IMG/VR virus record: IMGVR_UViG_3300020214_000114
Span: 1-24,854 of that record
DNA: 24,854 bases
Direction: 5' to 3' (one strand)
From: a virus
Shown here: positions 12,493 to 21,729 of the stretch, one piece after another
Layout: every line of letters begins with the position of its first letter
Numbering within the stretch: position 1 is the first letter of the stretch
Made by a program: the position numbers and the translations under genes
The notes under the pieces: model-generated
Told to the model about the DNA's origin: nothing
The model's input: only the letters and a program-made list of their open reading frames with translations
Database searches by the model: none

Positions 12493-13665
12493 ATGCCACA
12501 GATAAACATTACAGAAAACTCACCAAACCTATCAGGCGCAGTACAATCTCAAAGTTCTTCCCATGTTTCTGTTTTTATGTGTGGTGCTTCTTTCATGGCA
12601 AAGCTAACAGAAGGAGATAGTCCTGTTCCAGCTTTCAAACAATATAATACGCCGCAGGAACTAATTTCTGAATTTAATACAGAAGTTCTTGCTGGAACTT
12701 CAAGTGGGTTTATTTCTAGTGGACCAGAAAAAGGTTTTAGCGGTGGTACTACTCTTGACAGAGAATTACATGCAGCTTTAAATTATCTAGAATACGGTGG
12801 TATTTTGATCGCAGCAACTGGTGCTACATCAATGGCAGCATCAAATATGAAAATTGATTCTACTTTCTACGAAAGAAGAGATAAATTTGATGATGTTGTT
12901 GCTTTAGTAAATATTTTTGAAGATGTTATTGGTGTTGTTGGTTCATCATTTGAATTCCATAATGGTTCTACTAGTAACTATCCAATAGAATTTGATAGTG
13001 GATTTGGAGTAACCGGAATATCGGGTGTTTCTGGTTCTACTTTTGATAATAATATTTTTTCTGTAATAGGTAGAAAAGAAAGAACAAGACTATATGGTGG
13101 AGAAACTGCTAATATTTCAATTCTAATGGTTTCTGATGCAGCAGGATGCTTGGCAAGAACAGATAGCAGTTTCTTCCCATGGTATGCTCCAGCAGGAATA
13201 ATCAGAGGAGCAGTAAATACAATTTCTAAACTATATCCATCAATCGATGATACAGACATTACTAATTTACAAAATCAAAATGTAAATGCATTTAATAATG
13301 TTTTAGGAATTGATGGAATCTTCTTATTGGGCGATAAAACTTGCGAACTTACAACTGAAAATAAGAAACAAATTGGTGTAACTCGTCTAATTAATTACAT
13401 CAGTCGTGCAATCAAACCCATAGTTGCTGAAGCACTTTTCGAACTCAATGACGCAGAAACAAGATCAAAGATTCTATCTGCGTTGACTTCTATAATGGAA
13501 TCTGTCAAGTCTGGTAGAGGAATTTCATCATATGTCGCAATATGTGATGAAACCAATAATACTCAAGCAATTGTTGATGCAAGACAAATTGTTGTCGATC
13601 TATCATTCAAACCAATATTCTCTGTAAATCAAGTTTCGTTCAGATTTGTAATTAATCAATCTTAA
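12493..13665 (+). CDS. gp18: Tail sheath protein gp18, first copy
   Basis: This 390-residue contractile sheath protein drives injection by shortening around the tube. Support is the sheath-family C-terminal domain: RLINYISRAIKPIVAEALFE, 'N-D-x-x-TR-x-K-I' and SYVAICDETNNT, ending in VVDLSFKPIFSVNQVSFRF. Earlier comes 'SD-x-x-GC-x-AR-x-x-x-x-x-PWYAPAG-x-I-RG' around residues 215-238. It is much shorter than T4 gp18 (659 residues) and close in size to minimal sheaths such as those of R-type pyocins, so the outer protruding domains are probably missing. An AGGA lies 9 bases before the ATG. Its TAA overlaps the ATG of a second sheath-like gene. Confidence 0.9.
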   Translation: MPQINITENSPNLSGAVQSQSSSHVSVFMCGASFMAKLTEGDSPVPAFKQYNTPQELISEFNTEVLAGTSSGFISSGPEKGFSGGTTLDRELHAALNYLEYGGILIAATGATSMAASNMKIDSTFYERRDKFDDVVALVNIFEDVIGVVGSSFEFHNGSTSNYPIEFDSGFGVTGISGVSGSTFDNNIFSVIGRKERTRLYGGETANISILMVSDAAGCLARTDSSFFPWYAPAGIIRGAVNTISKLYPSIDDTDITNLQNQNVNAFNNVLGIDGIFLLGDKTCELTTENKKQIGVTRLINYISRAIKPIVAEALFELNDAETRSKILSALTSIMESVKSGRGISSYVAICDETNNTQAIVDARQIVVDLSFKPIFSVNQVSFRFVINQS

Positions 13666-14954
13666 TGGATGATTTAACATTCAATTTTGAAGTAATAGAA
13701 AGTAAAAAGGATATAGACATAGGAATATTGATCTATGATTCCACATATATCAACTTTCTACGCCTTCAAAATGAAAAATATTACAAAATTGATTCTCAAA
13801 CAAAACTTACAGATTTAATAAAAAATGGAGATTATACACAGATATCAACAACCCCTGCTATAACTACATTTGAAGATTTTTTAGATTTAGTTACAACTAC
13901 ATCTGGACCATATACGGCAGAATACAAAAAAGCAAGAAAAGTTAATTTTTATAATAATTTTTTGCTAGATTGTTCGCATTATAATTTTAATATAATTCTT
14001 ATCAATTGTTCTGTGGGTGAAGTTTCAGCAATAAAGAAAGCATTTAATGAAAATTATATAAAAGCTTTTTGCTATGATCCTTTGCGTACTGAGATCAATT
14101 CTGATTTAAAAAACATTATTAAAGGAAAAAAATGTCCAATAATTTTTAATTCATTAGATAAATCAAATAAATTATTGGAAGAATCGTATATAGTATCAAA
14201 TAGAATACCCAGTTCAATTGCATTAAATGAGCTTAATCTTAGAAATTTCAACGATGAAGATTTCCAAATTCTTTCTTATTCGATTGCTGGAATTAAGAAA
14301 AAATTTGCTTATTACAGAGCAACTGGTATTTCTGTTAATGATAAAAAGCTATTGCCGATATCTTTAATGACAGATGCCGTTGGTTGTTTTGCTAGAAGTT
14401 TAGCATCTATTCCTTGGCTACCTCCAGCAGGGTATGTTCGTGGAAAATTACTAAATCAGGACTTTGAAACTATAGAAATTCCTATATCAACATCTCCAAT
14501 GGAAGGGATAATACCAACTACTCCTTCAAATCTAAATGATCTTGAAGCTGTTTATAATAAAGGTATAAATCTTGCGATTGAAATAATTGGGGCCAATAAC
14601 CTAAAAGCATTTTATATTAATAGCGATGTGTCTGGATATACAGGAAGTGCATATCCACTAAAACAATCAATTTCATATTCTAATTTGATTTTTGATGTAA
14701 TAAGCAATATTCAATATATTTTAAATAGTACATTATTTGAGTTTAACGATGAAGCTACACGAAATATCATAAAAGTCAGAATTGAACAATATTTACTATT
14801 TGCGAAAATAAATTCTGGAGTTGATGATTTTATAGTAGTTTGTGATGCATCAAATAATAATGAAACTGACTATATCAATCGAAAAGTCAACGTTGATGTA
14901 TCGATAAAGCCATCACAAAGCATAAATTTTGTTGAATTGAGCTTTACTACATAA
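13665..14954 (+). CDS. Tail sheath-like protein gp18, second copy
   Basis: This 429-residue paralogue of the preceding gene is coupled to it by a TAATG overlap. Shared elements in the same order are a 'L-M-T-D-A-V-GC-F-AR-x-x-x-x-x-PWLPPAGYVRG' segment at about 225-255, TLFEFNDEATRNIIK, DFIVVCDASNN, and the ending VNVDVSIKPSQSINFVELSF. The first 200 residues are diverged, Lys/Asn-rich and AT-rich (for example KKDIDIGILIYDSTYINFL), unlike the first copy. It may form part of the sheath at specific rings, cap the sheath, or be a separate minor tail protein. No frameshift or stop interrupts it, so it is not a pseudogene. Confidence 0.8.
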   Translation: MDDLTFNFEVIESKKDIDIGILIYDSTYINFLRLQNEKYYKIDSQTKLTDLIKNGDYTQISTTPAITTFEDFLDLVTTTSGPYTAEYKKARKVNFYNNFLLDCSHYNFNIILINCSVGEVSAIKKAFNENYIKAFCYDPLRTEINSDLKNIIKGKKCPIIFNSLDKSNKLLEESYIVSNRIPSSIALNELNLRNFNDEDFQILSYSIAGIKKKFAYYRATGISVNDKKLLPISLMTDAVGCFARSLASIPWLPPAGYVRGKLLNQDFETIEIPISTSPMEGIIPTTPSNLNDLEAVYNKGINLAIEIIGANNLKAFYINSDVSGYTGSAYPLKQSISYSNLIFDVISNIQYILNSTLFEFNDEATRNIIKVRIEQYLLFAKINSGVDDFIVVCDASNNNETDYINRKVNVDVSIKPSQSINFVELSFTT

Positions 14955-14957
14955 TAC

Positions 14958-15464
14958 ATGGCATCTATTACGAGTTTCATTTCAAATTTCAAGGGCGGCA
15001 CAAGAAGAAACAGATTTTTAGTTTCTGCCTCTTGGCCCACTGGAGTTCCTAATAATTCAAGCACATATCACATTATTTCCGCCACTATGCCTCCATCAGA
15101 TCTTGGAAGAGTATCAATGCCGCATAGAGGTAGACTCATTCATTTTGCTGGTGATAGAAGTTATAGAGACTGGGATATAGCAATACTTGATGATACAGAA
15201 AAAGCTCTATGGAATTCCTTTCAAGAGTGGCATAAAAAAATAAATTCACATGTTTCTAATACCCATTCTGCATCATCTGATGCCTTTAAAAATTTAAAAA
15301 CAGATTGGACAATAAAACATTTGGATTTAAATGGAAGTATTTTAAAAACTATGACTCTTAAGGGGTGTTTTCCTGCCTTAGTAGGTGGAATAGAATTTGA
15401 TATGAATTCTCAGATATACAATACTTTTTCTGTCAAATTATCTTACGACTATTTCACTGGCTAA
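14958..15464 (+). CDS. gp19: Tail tube protein gp19, first copy
   Basis: This 168-residue protein of the T4 gp19 type (163 residues) stacks in hexamers to make the inner DNA-conducting tube. Visible features are 'F-x-x-x-F-KGGTRRNRFLVS' at the start, SATMPPSDLGRVSMPHRGR, then HFAGDRSYRDWDIAILDD, 'W-x-x-F-x-x-W-H-x-x-IN-x-HVSNT', and a closing strand pair with LKGCFPALVGGIEFDM and FSVKLSYDYF. It begins three bases after the second sheath gene. No strong ribosome-binding site is seen. A second tube gene follows. Confidence 0.9.
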   Translation: MASITSFISNFKGGTRRNRFLVSASWPTGVPNNSSTYHIISATMPPSDLGRVSMPHRGRLIHFAGDRSYRDWDIAILDDTEKALWNSFQEWHKKINSHVSNTHSASSDAFKNLKTDWTIKHLDLNGSILKTMTLKGCFPALVGGIEFDMNSQIYNTFSVKLSYDYFTG

Positions 15465-15476
15465 TTGGAGAACTAA

Positions 15477-16007
15477 ATGGCTCAATCAATAAATGACTTT
15501 AAAACAAACTTTGTAGGCGGAACTAGAAAAAATCGTTTCCGCGTAACTGGTAATTTTCAATATGGTGGTGCATTCAATATTTTTCAAGTAATGGCTGCAT
15601 CTCTTCCTCAAAATAATCTATATGTTATCGAATATGATTATAGAGGTAGAAAACTCAAATTACCTGGAGATAGGACATATGGAAGCCAAGGAAGCAGCAT
15701 ATGGGAAGTAGCTATTCTAGACGATGCAAATACAAATCCATCACAAATATGGAGTAAATTGCATGACTGGAGCAATAATATCAACGAGCATGTTAGTAAC
15801 ACTGGTGATCAAATATCTCCGTCTTTGTATAAAGCTAATGGTTGGAAAGTAGAGCAATTAGATTTAAATTGCACTAATGTTTTAAAGACTGTTAATTTAT
15901 TTGGATGTTGGCCAATTTCAGTAGGTGAAATCGCCCTAGATATGAGAGTGCCGAACGAATTTGTGACATTTAATGTGGCATTTTCTTTTGATTATATCGA
16001 TCAATAA
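15477..16007 (+). CDS. gp19: Tail tube protein gp19, second copy
   Basis: This 176-residue paralogue of the preceding gene shares the same landmarks: FVGGTRKNRFRVTG, 'YDYRGRKLKLPGDRTY', WEVAILDDANT, 'W-S-N-N-IN-E-HVSNTGD', LDLNC-x-x-VLKTVNLFGCWP and the ending VTFNVAFSFDYID. Unlike the first copy it has a strong GGAG ribosome-binding site at 15466-15469, 7 bases before the ATG. That suggests high expression and makes it a good candidate for the main tube subunit. Both copies appear intact. Confidence 0.9.
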   Translation: MAQSINDFKTNFVGGTRKNRFRVTGNFQYGGAFNIFQVMAASLPQNNLYVIEYDYRGRKLKLPGDRTYGSQGSSIWEVAILDDANTNPSQIWSKLHDWSNNINEHVSNTGDQISPSLYKANGWKVEQLDLNCTNVLKTVNLFGCWPISVGEIALDMRVPNEFVTFNVAFSFDYIDQ

Positions 16008-16021
16008 TATGGAGATTTGAA

Positions 16022-17557
16022 ATGGATTTTAAGCTTTTTGGTTTTAGATTAATAAAAGATACAAAAGAAGATCAAGTAAATCTTCAAAACTTTACACCAC
16101 CAGAAGAATTTGATGGAGCATATACCCTTGAAGGTTCTGGAGTCTATGGAACATTTATTGATTTCATGGGTTCTGCCAAGGACGAACAGGCAACTATTTC
16201 TCAGTATAGAGCAATGGCATTGTTTCCTGAAGTGGATACTGCTATTGACGAGATCACCAATGAGGCAATTGTTTTAGGTGTAGATAGAAAACCTGTAAAA
16301 TTAGACTTATCTAAAATCAATTTTTCAGAAAATATAAAGAGTAGAATATATTCAGAATTTGATTCCATCCTTCAACTTCTTGATTTTCAAGATAAATCAC
16401 ATGAAATTTTTCGTAGATGGTACATCGATTCAAAGCTTTATTTTTATATTTCAATCGACATGGATGATCCGTCTTCTGGCATCAAGCAATTGATTCCATT
16501 AGATTCTACAAAGATCAAGAAAGTCAGAAAAGTAAAATCAAATCCAATAAAACAAAATTACGAATCATTATCAATTATTCAAGATGTAGAAGAATTTTAT
16601 GTTTATTCGAATAATGATAAAAACTCAATAATTGGAACTAGTGTAGGTGGTCTTAAAATTTCTCCGGATTCTATCTGCTATGTTCATTCTGGAATGGTCG
16701 ATATGAACTCAAAGAGGGTTCTAGGATTCCTTCACAAGGCAATTAGACCCCTAAACATGCTAAGACAGGTAGAAGATGCAATTGTTGTATATCGCATCTC
16801 CCGTGCTCCAGAGCGTAGAATTTTTTATGTAGATGTAGGTAATTTACCAAAGCAAAAGGCCGAACAGTATGTTCGTGAGCTTATGAACAAATACCGCAAT
16901 CGTATGGTTTACAACCAGACAACGGGCGAAATCAAAGACGATAGAAACCAAATGGCAATGCTTGAGGACTTCTGGCTTCCAAGAAGAGAAGGTGGTAGAG
17001 GGACCGAAATTACCACCCTTGATGGGGGACAGAATCTAGGTGAACTTGCCGATGTGGAGTATTTTAAGAAAAAGTTATATTTTGCCCTTAATATTCCTCC
17101 GTCAAGATTGGTAGGAGAAAATGGTTTCAATATTGGAAGATCAGCTGAAATTACGCGAGATGAGGTAAAATTCTATAAATTCGTTGAAAGAGTGCGTTAT
17201 AAGTTCTCAGGGGTATTCTCTCAATTGCTAAGAATTCAGTTGATCTTAAAGGGAGTAATTACAGAGGATGATTGGAATCTAATTTATCCTCATATTAATT
17301 TCATATTCAATAAAGATTCATATTTTAATGATTTAAAGGATGCAGAAATTCTGTCTTCTAGAATGGAATTGGCAGCTCAGATGGAGCCAATGATCGGAAG
17401 ATATTATTCAAGTAACTATATCCGTAAAAATATTCTAAAGCAAACCGAAGAGGAAATGGATCTTATTAACCAAGAAATGGCTATAGATATAGCCAAACAA
17501 AAACAAGAACAGTTAGAACAAATGCAAATAGAACAGCAGGCTCAGGCTCAAGAATGA
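16022..17557 (+). CDS. gp20: Portal vertex protein gp20
   Basis: This 511-residue portal (T4 gp20 has 524 residues) forms the dodecameric DNA entry channel on which the prohead starts. Highly conserved gp20 segments are present: YRAMALFPEVDTAIDEITNE near residue 62, 'AIRPLNMLRQVEDA-x-V-x-YR-x-x-RAPERR-x-FY-x-DVGNLP' near 240-280, and KYRNRMVYNQTTGEI. They continue with 'D-R-N-Q-M-x-M-LEDFWLPRREGG-RGTEI-TTLDGGQNLGE' near 300-340 and 'NIPPSRL-x-x-x-x-x-FN-x-GRS-x-EITRDE-x-KF'. The C-terminus is a Gln-rich helix. A GGAG lies upstream of the ATG. The conserved middle part is less AT-rich than both ends. Confidence 0.95.
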   Translation: MDFKLFGFRLIKDTKEDQVNLQNFTPPEEFDGAYTLEGSGVYGTFIDFMGSAKDEQATISQYRAMALFPEVDTAIDEITNEAIVLGVDRKPVKLDLSKINFSENIKSRIYSEFDSILQLLDFQDKSHEIFRRWYIDSKLYFYISIDMDDPSSGIKQLIPLDSTKIKKVRKVKSNPIKQNYESLSIIQDVEEFYVYSNNDKNSIIGTSVGGLKISPDSICYVHSGMVDMNSKRVLGFLHKAIRPLNMLRQVEDAIVVYRISRAPERRIFYVDVGNLPKQKAEQYVRELMNKYRNRMVYNQTTGEIKDDRNQMAMLEDFWLPRREGGRGTEITTLDGGQNLGELADVEYFKKKLYFALNIPPSRLVGENGFNIGRSAEITRDEVKFYKFVERVRYKFSGVFSQLLRIQLILKGVITEDDWNLIYPHINFIFNKDSYFNDLKDAEILSSRMELAAQMEPMIGRYYSSNYIRKNILKQTEEEMDLINQEMAIDIAKQKQEQLEQMQIEQQAQAQE

Positions 17558-17584: not shown

Positions 17585-17839
17585 ATGAAAAGCAAAAAAA
17601 TAATTCACTCAATTTTATCAGAAAACGCAATTGACGCTAAGAAGCTAATCCAAGAGGATTTAGCCATAAAGCTAGGAGAAAGACTTGCTGAAGAATATGT
17701 TCGTGTTGCTAAATTATCATTTGCCGATGGCGAAGAGGGCGAAGAGGGCGAAGAGGGCGAATCAACCCCGGTAACGCCAAGACAAAACCCCAAACAGACT
17801 CCAACCGGATTTGATGTTCGTTTGGCATACAACGACTAA
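17585..17839 (+). CDS. gp67: Prohead core protein gp67
   Basis: This 84-residue protein matches T4 gp67 (80 residues), a small acidic scaffold-core protein encoded between gp20 and gp21. T4 gp67 is processed by gp21 and leaves an acidic internal peptide in the head. As in T4, it has a helical N-terminal part with alternating hydrophobic and charged residues (IDAKKLIQEDLAIKLGERLA) followed by an acidic tail, here DGEEGEEGEEGES at residues 48-60. The tail comes from a 9-base tandem repeat. A Pro/Thr/Gln-rich end follows, which T4 gp67 lacks. Four L/I-x-E sites (LSE, IQE, LGE, LAE) fit cleavage by the gp21 protease. AAGGAA precedes the ATG. Confidence 0.8.
   Translation: MKSKKIIHSILSENAIDAKKLIQEDLAIKLGERLAEEYVRVAKLSFADGEEGEEGEEGESTPVTPRQNPKQTPTGFDVRLAYND
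17729..17761 (+). repeat. 9-base tandem repeat GGCGAAGAG, about 3.7 units
   Basis: Three exact copies of GGCGAAGAG plus GGCGAA lie inside the gp67-like gene and encode Gly-Glu-Glu repeats. The unit is in frame, so gain or loss of copies would change the length of the acidic tail without a frameshift. It is G-rich in an AT-rich setting, which suggests recent expansion by slippage. Confidence 0.92.
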
Positions 17840-17841
17840 AA

Positions 17842-18486
17842 ATGAAATTAATAACAGAAACAGTAGAAGATGTATCGTACCTAACCGAAAACAAAGACGG
17901 TGAAAAGCAATTTTTCATCGAAGGAGTTTTCATGCAGGCCGAACAAAAGAACAAGAATGGCAGAGTTTATCCAAGACAAATTCTTTCTAAAGAAGCCAAT
18001 CGCTATCTTAATGAATATGTAAATAAAAATCGCGCTCTTGGAGAACTAAATCATCCAACTGGCCCCTCAGTAAATCTAGATCGTGTTTCCCATAAAATTA
18101 TTTGGTTAAATGAGAATAATAATGATTTCTATGGTAAGGCTAAAATTCTTGACACTCCCTGTGGTCAGATTGTTAAAAATCTGATGAATGAAAATATAAA
18201 AATGGGCGTTTCAACTCGCGGTATGGGATCTTTAGAAAAGCGGGGGGGAGTAAATTTTGTGAAAGAAGACTTCATGCTTGCTGCCATTGATATCGTTGCA
18301 GATCCATCAGCTCCAAATGCTTTCGTCAATGGAATCATGGAAGGCAAGGAATGGGTATGGGATAACGGTCTTCTTAGAGAACAGCAAATTGCTGAGTATC
18401 AGAATACACTGAAGAAGACACCTTCTAGAAAATTACAAGCCGAATCAATTAGGCTCTTTGCAGATTTTTTAAGGAAAATTAGATGA
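17842..18486 (+). CDS. gp21: Prohead maturation protease gp21
   Basis: This 214-residue serine protease (T4 gp21 has 212 residues) degrades the scaffold and trims capsid proteins after L/I-x-E. It has the herpesvirus-protease-like fold of the family. Likely catalytic residues are H71 in GELNHPTGPSVNLDRVSH and S124 in GVSTRGMGS. An acidic residue follows in the DIVADPSAPNAFVNGIMEG segment (D150/D154). The N-terminal 'GVFMQAEQKNKNGRVYPR' element is typical. It starts two bases after gp67, and its TGA overlaps the next ATG (ATGA). A run of seven G bases at 18242-18248 lies between the codons for the serine and the acid segment. Confidence 0.94.
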   Translation: MKLITETVEDVSYLTENKDGEKQFFIEGVFMQAEQKNKNGRVYPRQILSKEANRYLNEYVNKNRALGELNHPTGPSVNLDRVSHKIIWLNENNNDFYGKAKILDTPCGQIVKNLMNENIKMGVSTRGMGSLEKRGGVNFVKEDFMLAAIDIVADPSAPNAFVNGIMEGKEWVWDNGLLREQQIAEYQNTLKKTPSRKLQAESIRLFADFLRKIR

Positions 18487-19286
18487 AGAGATTAAATCCA
18501 AAAGAATTAAGATCGTTAAATGAGTGTGCCTATCACACTATGTCCAATCAACAATTGGATGAAAGTATTTTTGGAGCTATTGGTAAATTAGTAACAAAAG
18601 GTGCTGCTGGTGCTGCTAAAGCAGGAAGTGTTGCTGCAAGAAGCACTAGTGCAGTTGGTCGTTCGGGTTTAAAAAGAGCAGCTACAGTTAGAATTGGTAG
18701 AGCCAGACAAGGAATTCAAAGATTAGGACAAGATATAGCGGACAAAATAAGTGATATTAGAACAGGAACTACAACTGCATCTAGTACTAGAGCAGCCCAA
18801 AGAGCAGCTTCTGCACCAGGAGCAGCGCAAAGAGCAGTTTCAGCTAGACGAGTACTAAAAGATAGACAAGCCACGATACGAGATGCATTAAACGCATCAA
18901 GAAACACACCAATGTCTACAAGTGATGCAGCAAAAAGAATAAGTGCAGAAAAAGCACTAGCAGCTGGCAAATTGGATGATGCAGAATTAGTTTTAGGTCT
19001 AAAGCAACCTATTACAGCCACACAAGCCACACACGCCGCACGTGCCGCTAGAGGCGGTTCTGGTCTTGCTACAGCTGCTGCTGGGGCAGCGGGTGGTGCT
19101 GTTGGTTCATCCGCAGGAAAAAAGAGAGGATTCTTATCAAAACAATTTGGTGAAGTAGAAGATGCGGCTTTAGCAGGTGTAGGTGAAAATCTTTTCGGTG
19201 ATTTAAAAAGAACACTTGAACTTAGCGGAAGGGCCACAGGTTCTAGAATAAATATACAAAATAGATTCAGAGGATTAAAATACTAA
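18483..19286 (+). CDS. Basic Ala-rich protein, putative internal head protein with protease-cleaved leader
   Basis: This 267-residue protein of no recognised family lies between the prohead protease and scaffold genes and is translationally coupled to gp21. It is rich in Ala, Arg, Ser, Gly and Thr, poor in acidic residues and nearly lacks aromatics, so it is strongly basic and probably binds DNA. Gly/Ala-rich, helix-prone stretches occur at about 31-52 and 190-213. The only two L/I-x-E protease sites are at its N-terminus: LNE at 12-14 and LDE at 25-27, in NQQLDESIFG. T4 internal proteins likewise carry a short N-terminal capsid-targeting sequence cut by gp21. A basic internal protein packed with DNA and possibly injected is inferred. 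A gp68-like core protein is an alternative. Confidence 0.65.
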   Translation: MKRLNPKELRSLNECAYHTMSNQQLDESIFGAIGKLVTKGAAGAAKAGSVAARSTSAVGRSGLKRAATVRIGRARQGIQRLGQDIADKISDIRTGTTTASSTRAAQRAASAPGAAQRAVSARRVLKDRQATIRDALNASRNTPMSTSDAAKRISAEKALAAGKLDDAELVLGLKQPITATQATHAARAARGGSGLATAAAGAAGGAVGSSAGKKRGFLSKQFGEVEDAALAGVGENLFGDLKRTLELSGRATGSRINIQNRFRGLKY

Positions 19287-19309: not shown

Positions 19310-20290
19310 ATGATACCACAAAATAATCAATCAGACGAACAGGACATCATTGGCGGTGGGGTTTTTGATACCACTGGTAAGGGAGTTGTTTTAAACGAGC
19401 CAGTTGGCGATTTCTACGCCCAAAACGCCGCTTCGATTCAAACCCCAAAGTCAGGAGCACCAGTACAAATGCCTGGTTCTCCAATGGGTACTGAAGATGA
19501 AATGGAAGAAGAAGATATGGAAGCAGAATCAGAAGAATCCTTAAAAGAACATCTTGCTGCTCTATTTGCAAATTATAATCTTTCAGAAGATTTCGTTGAA
19601 AGAGCAAAGACAATTTTTGTCGCTGCCTTAAATGAAAAATTAAATAAAAGAGCAATAAAGATTAATGAAGCATATAAAGCTTCATATACCAATAATCTAA
19701 ATGATACAGTTTTAAAAATAACTGATAAGGTTGATGATTATCTTACCTATGTCGTTGAAGAATGGGTAAACGAAAATCGTCTACAAGTTGAGAGGGGAAT
19801 CAAGGTAGAACTCGCTGAAAACTTCATCTTTGGTCTAAAGAAACTCTTTGAAACTAACTTCATTGATGTTCCTGACGAAAAGTATGATGTTCTAGACGAA
19901 CTCTACAGTCAAATCGATGTTCGGTCGAAGCAACTAAACAAGAGCATTCACGAAAATGTAAATCTTCGTAAGAAGCTTCTTAATACCGCTGCTGTAGCAG
20001 TTTTTGCTGAAGAAACATCTGGTTTAGCTGCAACTCAAGTTGATAGACTAGCCAATCTAGCAGAAGGCGTTCATTTCGACAATCCAGAAGAATTCCGTAG
20101 AAAACTTAAAATTATCAAGGAAAGCTTCTTTGCTCGTCCAGATGTAGCACCACAACAAGTACAACCAAGAATTCAACCAGCCAAACGCACTATTGACATT
20201 CTTGAGACATCAACAGTACCAGAAACACTAACGGAAAGTACTGTTAATACTTATGCAAATGCGATTAGTAGACACCTTAAGCACAGATAA
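19310..20290 (+). CDS. gp22: Prohead scaffolding core protein gp22
   Basis: This 326-residue major scaffold protein (T4 gp22 has 269 residues) is the internal core around which gp23 assembles and which gp21 then digests. Typical features are an acidic block at about 61-75 (EDEMEEEDMEAESEE) and long charged helices. The conserved centre 'EEWVNENRLQVERGIKVELAENF' and 'GLKKLFE-x-x-F-I-DVPDEK' is followed by a coiled-coil-like region around 200-220. Thirteen L/I-x-E tripeptides are spread along it, as expected for a protein reduced to peptides by gp21. It has its own late-promoter octamer and a GGAG ribosome-binding site. The Pro/Gln-rich segment near 275-290 resembles a linker to the C-terminal capsid-binding helix. 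Confidence 0.92.
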   Translation: MIPQNNQSDEQDIIGGGVFDTTGKGVVLNEPVGDFYAQNAASIQTPKSGAPVQMPGSPMGTEDEMEEEDMEAESEESLKEHLAALFANYNLSEDFVERAKTIFVAALNEKLNKRAIKINEAYKASYTNNLNDTVLKITDKVDDYLTYVVEEWVNENRLQVERGIKVELAENFIFGLKKLFETNFIDVPDEKYDVLDELYSQIDVRSKQLNKSIHENVNLRKKLLNTAAVAVFAEETSGLAATQVDRLANLAEGVHFDNPEEFRRKLKIIKESFFARPDVAPQQVQPRIQPAKRTIDILETSTVPETLTESTVNTYANAISRHLKHR

Positions 20291-20319: not shown

Positions 20320-21729
20320 ATGTACGAAGATTCAACACCATACGATATTTTAACTGAGAAGTGGGAGCCAGTTTTAAGCCATAGCGCACTCCCTGCAATT
20401 GAAGATAGTTACAAGACAAAAGTTACCGCAGTTCTTCTTGAGAACCAAGAGTCTGCAATGCGTGCTCAGAGACTAACCGAAGACAACGTTCTCGGCGGAC
20501 CCGTCAGCAACGTCTTAGGTGGCGCATCCACCAACATTGCTGGTTACGATCCAATCCTAATCAGCCTCGTTCGTCGCGCAATGCCAAACCTCATTGCTTA
20601 CGACATCTGCGGCGTTCAGCCCATGACCGCTCCTACCGGACTCATCTTCGCAATGCGTCCCAAGTATGATCCCACTGGTGGACCTCGCAAAGAAGCCATG
20701 TACCAGGAAGCATTCGTACCATTCGGTGGTTCTGGTGGTACTAGTGCATCTTATACCAACTACTTTGGTGGTTCAGCCGATTACGGTCTAACCCTATTCT
20801 CTGGTACAACTGGTGCAACCAGAGGTGCATTCCACGGTGATGACTTCAAGGGTATGCTTGTTGGTACTGCTGAAACCCTCGGTGGATCCGATGGTAAGCC
20901 TTTCCAAGAAATGGCATTCACCATCGACAAGGTTGCTGTTCAGGCTAAGACTCGTGCTCTAAAGGCCGACTATACTACTGAACTTGCTCAGGACCTCAAG
21001 GCTGTTCACGGTCTTGACGCTGAAACCGAACTCGCCAATATTCTCAGCACTGAAATTCTTGCTGAAATCAACCGCGAAGTTGTCCGTGGTATCTACCGTG
21101 TTTCCAAGCTCGGCGCACAGCAGACAGACTTGTTTGCCAAGTCAGCTTCTTCAGGCCCAGCCTCTGCTGGTGGCGTGTATGACCTACTCGTTGACTCTGA
21201 CGGTCGTTGGTCAGCTGAACGCTTCCGTGGCCTCATGTTCCAGATCGAACGCGAAGCTAACACAATTGCTAAGGAAACTCGTCGTGGTAAGGGTAACTTA
21301 GTCATCTGCTCGTCAGATGTTGCTTCAGCCCTCGCCATGGGTGGATTCCTTAACATTAGCCCAGCTCTAAACAACCAGCTTGAAGTTGATGATACCGGCA
21401 ACACTTTTGCTGGTGTACTAAACGGCAAGATGCGCGTTTACATCGATCCTTATGTTCAGGCTGGTGTTGACTTCTGCTGTGTCGGATACCGTGGTGCAAG
21501 CCCATACGACGCTGGCTTGTTCTACTGCCCATACGTTCCACTCCAGATGGTCCGTGCAGTCGATCCTGATACCTTCCAGCCCAAGATCGGCTTCAAGACT
21601 CGCTACGGCATGGTCGCTAATCCATTCGTCTTGAATGATAGTGGTACTTCAGACGGAGAAGCCTTGACCGCTAATATCAACCAGTACTACCGCATCTTCC
21701 GCGTATTAAACCTACACGGCAACGCCTAA
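20320..21729 (+). CDS. gp23: Major capsid protein gp23
   Basis: This 469-residue HK97-fold capsid protein is homologous to T4 gp23 (521 residues). The diagnostic segment LISLVRRAMPNLIAYDICG with VQPMTAPTG follows at residues 80-107. Later come 'FEMAFTIDK' territory with VAVQAKTRALKADYTTELAQ, DLKAVHGLDAETELANILS, 'EINREVVRGIY', and the C-terminal PFVGYRGASPYDAG-like element (VGYRGASPYDAGLFY CPYVPL). The N-terminal prodomain contains L-T-E at 52-54, in QRLTEDNVLGG. That is a fitting gp21 cleavage site next to the start of the mature shell protein. Codons end in C/G far more often than in neighbouring genes (57% G+C by hand count in 20581-20640), as expected for a highly expressed gene. Confidence 0.97.
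   Translation: MYEDSTPYDILTEKWEPVLSHSALPAIEDSYKTKVTAVLLENQESAMRAQRLTEDNVLGGPVSNVLGGASTNIAGYDPILISLVRRAMPNLIAYDICGVQPMTAPTGLIFAMRPKYDPTGGPRKEAMYQEAFVPFGGSGGTSASYTNYFGGSADYGLTLFSGTTGATRGAFHGDDFKGMLVGTAETLGGSDGKPFQEMAFTIDKVAVQAKTRALKADYTTELAQDLKAVHGLDAETELANILSTEILAEINREVVRGIYRVSKLGAQQTDLFAKSASSGPASAGGVYDLLVDSDGRWSAERFRGLMFQIEREANTIAKETRRGKGNLVICSSDVASALAMGGFLNISPALNNQLEVDDTGNTFAGVLNGKMRVYIDPYVQAGVDFCCVGYRGASPYDAGLFYCPYVPLQMVRAVDPDTFQPKIGFKTRYGMVANPFVLNDSGTSDGEALTANINQYYRIFRVLNLHGNA

Follow-up and report, generated by a model that had tools for sequence, protein, structure and literature searches.

What does the protein encoded between the prohead protease and the scaffold of a T4-like phage do? 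The window, by which the whole analysed stretch of 24,854 nucleotides is meant, is 24.9 kb of sequence from a T4-like myovirus recorded in IMG/VR, and its head operon runs in the order gp20, gp67-like core protein, gp21 protease, the gene under study (here called X), gp22 scaffold and gp23. The original prediction placed a strongly basic open reading frame at 18483-19286 between the protease and scaffold genes, and this is correct: its neighbours are gp21 and gp22 by Pfam, and the net charge of X is +24. The genes of the operon are the following.

16022-17557: gp20
17585..17839, + strand: gp67-like prohead core protein (PF17634, E 7e-4, under the curated cut-off; PHROG 1064)
17842..18486, + strand: gp21-type prohead protease, the predicted X-processing enzyme (PF03420, E 2.7e-33)
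18483..19286, + strand: X, basic and Ala/Arg/Ser-rich, 267 aa, a predicted leader-bearing internal head protein
19310..20290, + strand: gp22 scaffold (PF25623, E 1.8e-58)
20320-21729: gp23 (PF07068)

A 2-bp gap separates the gp67-like gene from gp21, and the start of X overlaps the stop of gp21 (ATGA, 18483-18486). When aligned to T4 gp21, the window gp21 is seen to retain the ELNHP, GVSxRG and Asp/PSAP motifs. A 173-aa open frame lies antisense to X (18716-19237, - strand); its source is probably the Ala-rich codon use of X.

The consensus [LI]xE, expected for cleavage by gp21, occurs in X as LNE from residue 12 and as LDE from residue 25 and nowhere else, so the motif scan agrees with the two sites claimed before. 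With F1 denoting X's own family and A1 its alignment of 11 members, the predicted parts of the protein can be listed as follows.

18483..18563, + strand: predicted capsid-targeting leader of 27 residues, MKRLNPKELRSLNECAYHTMSNQQLDE
18516..18524, + strand: first predicted gp21 site, L12-N13-E14, invariant in A1 and present in all F1 homologs
18555..18563, + strand: second predicted gp21 site, L25-D26-E27, with the cut before S28, invariant in A1 and present in all F1 homologs, where it starts at residue 25-27
18564..18623, + strand: predicted post-cut N-terminus, SIFGAIGKLVTKGAAGAAKA, hydrophobic and Gly/Ala-rich
18564..19283, + strand: predicted mature body, basic, predicted helical, fast-evolving and mosaic

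The body of the window X contains zero consensus sites; one or two body sites occur in some of the F1 homologs. The AlphaFold model of X, made from the 11-row alignment, is poor (mean pLDDT 45), and therefore the body yields no clue to function. Comparison of X with PHROGs, Pfam and PDB sequences gave nothing above chance-level matches, and thus no clear match to a non-head family; tblastn in 50,697 phage records gave no match, and the bacterial and archaeal genomes scanned with the family alignment gave no relative. Close relatives of X were found in viral contigs only, and all homologs with both flanks present sit between gp21 and gp22. Given that no named head protein in PHROGs, Pfam or the phage records matches X in sequence, and that accessory genes do insert into T4-like operons, it could be argued that X is a non-head accessory gene which entered the head operon by chance and whose N-terminal motif is incidental.

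An N-terminal site in one protein alone is indeed weak evidence, and the locus itself has to be considered. Every ORF of at least 80 aa between gp21 and gp22 was collected from all fetched loci without regard to the motif, three starts were reset to the ATG that overlaps the gp21 stop, and families were formed by single linkage of blastp matches with E below 1e-3. The resulting 42 proteins fall into 18 families, mutually without detectable similarity. All 18 families have an [LI]xE motif within residues 1-45, compared with 5.0 +/- 1.9 expected from shuffled sequences; the N-terminal sites number 32 (6.1 expected), those in the bodies 5 (22.7 expected), and in 15 of the 18 families the sites are confined to the first 45 residues (1.8 expected). 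A distribution this extreme did not arise in any of 5000 shuffles, and the pattern over the 18 families exceeds chance. The other genes of the window, which served as control, lack this pattern: 10 of 21 have an N-terminal site and 2 of 21 have sites only in the N-terminal part.

The leader of X is also under strong purifying selection. Thirteen of the 18 invariant columns in A1, including both LxE motifs, fall within the 27-residue leader. In pairwise codon comparisons of diverged F1 members the leader has pN of 0.015-0.09 (about 0.03) and pS mostly of 0.3-0.9 (about 0.4), whereas dN/dS of the bodies is mostly 0.3-1.0, a range that mosaic blocks and errors of alignment push upwards; near-identical pairs are uninformative. 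The low leader pN, set against the dN/dS of the body, indicates that the leader is held while the body drifts. The original prediction had proposed that comparison with related genomes should reveal such a contrast, and A1, the 18 families and the codon comparison all bear it out. On the one hand, therefore, site enrichment at the N-terminus goes together with depletion in the body across the families; on the other hand, purifying selection is concentrated in the leader of X. Both aspects argue against a chance insertion with an incidental motif, which we regard as very improbable. Ten related contigs were also searched for the leader at other places, and the X gene was the sole match.

Whereas the bodies of the different families are unrelated, some of their leaders resemble one another. 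Such similarity, expressed as shuffle z, was obtained for F1/F4 (6.2), F4/F16 (5.9) and F9/F15 (4.8); F1, F4 and F16 thus have leaders that are alike and bodies that are unalike, which is the pattern expected from fusion of a leader to a cargo. Judged by eye, the leaders of F9 (MLSFKQYLREA) and F15 (MKLQFKQLLNEA) resemble the leader MKTYQEFIAEA of T4 ipII/ipIII; the leader of the window family has no visible similarity to the T4 leader. Past residue 45 the net charge is positive in 16 of the 18 family representatives and slightly acidic in the other two. Twenty further proteins of the locus gave weak matches only when compared with PHROGs.

The presence of X is not a general property of T4-like phages. 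Nine named T4-superfamily phages (T4, HTVC008M, C48C1, Melnitz-3, S-CAM1, Moby, phiMAM1, PC-Liy1 and CP30A) carry nothing comparable between gp21 and gp22; in all of them except HTVC008M gp22 directly follows gp21, as it also does in most viral contigs. The small ORF at this place in HTVC008M was considered as a relative of X and rejected; its sequence looks like the split-off N-terminus of gp22. The gene is absent from most relatives, and contig L186 has X-type cargo whereas its near neighbours L184 and L185 are without it. The history of the surrounding genes is also discordant. In the gp21 tree the window groups with phages carrying F2, F4 and F16 cargo (99/97), whereas in the gp22 tree it groups with F1 phages (98/99). 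Nucleotide identity at about 17750-18490 is highest to L171 (up to 93%), and on both flanks the F1 phages are nearest. This tree conflict, together with sliding identity, delimits the following feature, the downstream junction of which is the gp21/X boundary.

17750..18490, no strand assigned: recombinant segment from an L171-like lineage, covering the end of gp67 and gp21

Judging by these sequence comparisons, the X gene is accessory and swapped, and the interval between gp21 and gp22 serves as a slot for content that phages exchange. Presence or absence of the gene and family swaps among close relatives fit accessory cargo; unrelated, mostly basic proteins, all with an apparently protease-cut tag and all at one spot, make the interval look like a slot for swappable cargo that is packed in the head and probably enters the cell together with the DNA.

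If X is a substrate of gp21, its motif may be compared with those of the other presumed substrates. The gp22 of the window has 13 [LI]xE sites along its whole length, unlike X, and sites throughout are expected for a scaffold that is degraded. For gp23, alignment to the N-terminus of T4 gp23 gives one site.

20473..20481, + strand: predicted gp23 maturation site, L52-T53-E54

LxE, with Leu at P3, is present at this position in 31 of 34 rows from X-bearing phages and in 16 of 150 others, in which Gly, Ala and Gln are common at P3; the rows are not independent, because X-bearing phages are related, and the site itself is inferred by alignment. With this restriction, the leader motif of X and the inferred gp23 site agree in the X-bearing lineage. 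The shift at P3 of gp23 from Leu in X-bearing phages to Gly, Ala or Gln in most relatives suggests a change in the specificity of the protease.

The known proteins that X resembles most are the internal proteins of T4. T4 IPI, a head-packed protein, is able to inactivate a restriction enzyme of the host as the DNA enters; to our knowledge, few proteins of this kind are known, and homology misses them because their bodies vary. In IPI, IPII and IPIII a short N-terminal leader ends in [LI]xE, which is the sole such site in the protein, and in X the sites are likewise confined to the leader; moreover, both the T4 proteins and X are net positive and combine a conserved leader with a variable body. 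For targeting, ten residues of the IPIII leader are enough (PMC9026906). According to Rao and Black, the internal proteins of T-even phages are highly diverse defence proteins that have the targeting sequence alone in common (PMC3012670). There are differences as well: the leader of X is longer and has two sites, no similarity to the bodies of the T4 proteins was found, and the T4 ip genes are neighbours of e and 57B, a long way from the head operon, whereas X lies between gp21 and gp22. A comparable arrangement is present in phage SPN3US, where gp47, gp53 and gp54 have a propeptide that a gp21-type protease removes, cutting behind a motif whose last residue is Glu, and the protein is kept in the head, and where gp53 and gp54 have identical N-termini and diverged bodies (PMC5694885). 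These propeptides are mostly longer than 100 residues, compared with 27 in X.

Taken together, X is probably (roughly 0.75) a counterpart of the T4 internal head proteins: its leader would direct it to the prohead, gp21 would process it there, and it would remain inside the head. The 27-residue leader would act as a capsid targeting sequence and bind X into the gp22/gp67 prohead core; at maturation gp21 would cleave behind each of the two sites, L12NE and L25DE. With the leader peptides gone, what remains in the head between the packaged DNA would be the body from S28 onwards, which is basic and lacks sites. Packing in the head is suggested by analogy with the T4 internal proteins, and the positive charge points to a possible association with DNA. 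If the analogy extends further, the body could be ejected into the cell with the DNA, and its fast change would be that of a protein acting on a host-specific target, e.g. a defence or restriction enzyme. What the comparisons show is the conserved leader with its sites, the enrichment of such sites at the N-terminus, the variable bodies, the position of the gene and its exchange; that X is cleaved, lies in the head, touches the DNA, is ejected and counters host defence is inferred.

The main rival of this reading is a role in the core similar to that of T4 gp68, in which X would help to assemble the core or to set the size of the head and would be cleared or degraded rather than ejected. The layout of T4 gp68 is similar to that of X: all five of its [LI]xE sites form an N-terminal cluster in residues 4-67, the C-terminal tail is very basic, and the gene belongs to the core operon. 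In addition, the window has no gp68-type gene after the gp67-like gene and before gp21, which is the position of gp68 in T4. However, hhalign detected no profile match between X and gp68 (probability 0.2%), and X is located after gp21 and not between gp67 and gp21. X is accessory and exchanged: it is absent in most relatives, differs in presence even between close ones such as L184/L185 and L186, and gives way to unrelated bodies, which would not be expected of an essential component of the core. A gp68-like role is therefore unlikely.

The new N-terminus raises a different possibility, namely that X is an ejection or pilot protein acting on membranes, in which the cut exposes a Gly/Ala-rich segment that inserts in the host membrane and aids the entry of DNA or protein. 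The original prediction had suggested that this segment could form an amphipathic, membrane-active helix, which the sequences support in part. Compared with their own bodies, the post-cut segments of the families are more hydrophobic (p = 0.0008) and richer in Gly/Ala (p = 0.017), but their hydrophobic moment is not raised (p = 0.37), and an amphipathic helix as a general feature of the families is not upheld; in X, the 18 residues past the cut have a Kyte-Doolittle mean of 0.99 and a moment of 0.38. A segment resembling a membrane span immediately past the predicted cut is present in the Gly/Ala-rich F3 (L016, L182, L188) and in F17 (L186), and in the giant-phage ejection protein SPN3US gp47 a transmembrane domain is predicted at the N-terminus of the mature fragment (PMC5694885). 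By contrast, F8, F10 and F18 would acquire a hydrophilic N-terminus, and a conserved entry function is unlikely to be so freely lost or swapped. On balance, a membrane-acting role appears rather improbable.

Returning to X as an internal protein of the T4 type, a broader reading of the locus can be offered tentatively, with somewhat less than even confidence: the interval between gp21 and gp22 may be a dedicated slot, in which leader modules have been fused to at least 18 unrelated bodies and recombined at or near the gp21/X junction, each body being a phage-specific injected protein for anti-defence or takeover. Diverse internal proteins sharing a conserved capsid targeting sequence are known from T-even phages; what appears to be new, in the literature searched, which included few subscription journals, is the slot in the head operon, the uncultivated lineage that has it and how varied the cargo is. 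A fixed slot and a simple leader rule make such cargo searchable, and one locus has given 18 mutually dissimilar candidate families. If the slot reading is true, the leader rule would allow injected phage effectors to be listed directly from metagenomes; new tags for capsid targeting would be a further gain, and the arms race over injected proteins could be studied in uncultivated phages.

Three further observations concern the neighbourhood of these genes. At L014:4032-4930 two cargo-like ORFs stand in tandem between gp21 and gp22, each with a leader-like N-terminus. In relatives that lack X, ORFs located before gp21 (L031:3597-3923 and L038:3650-3949) have N-termini, such as MKSFKDLKQELLEAK and MKTFQQMSRELSEAK, that recall the T4 capsid targeting sequence. 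In the window, two tandem tail-sheath-like ORFs (12493-14954) are followed by two tail-tube-like ORFs (14958-16007), as suggested by their position and by reading of the translations.
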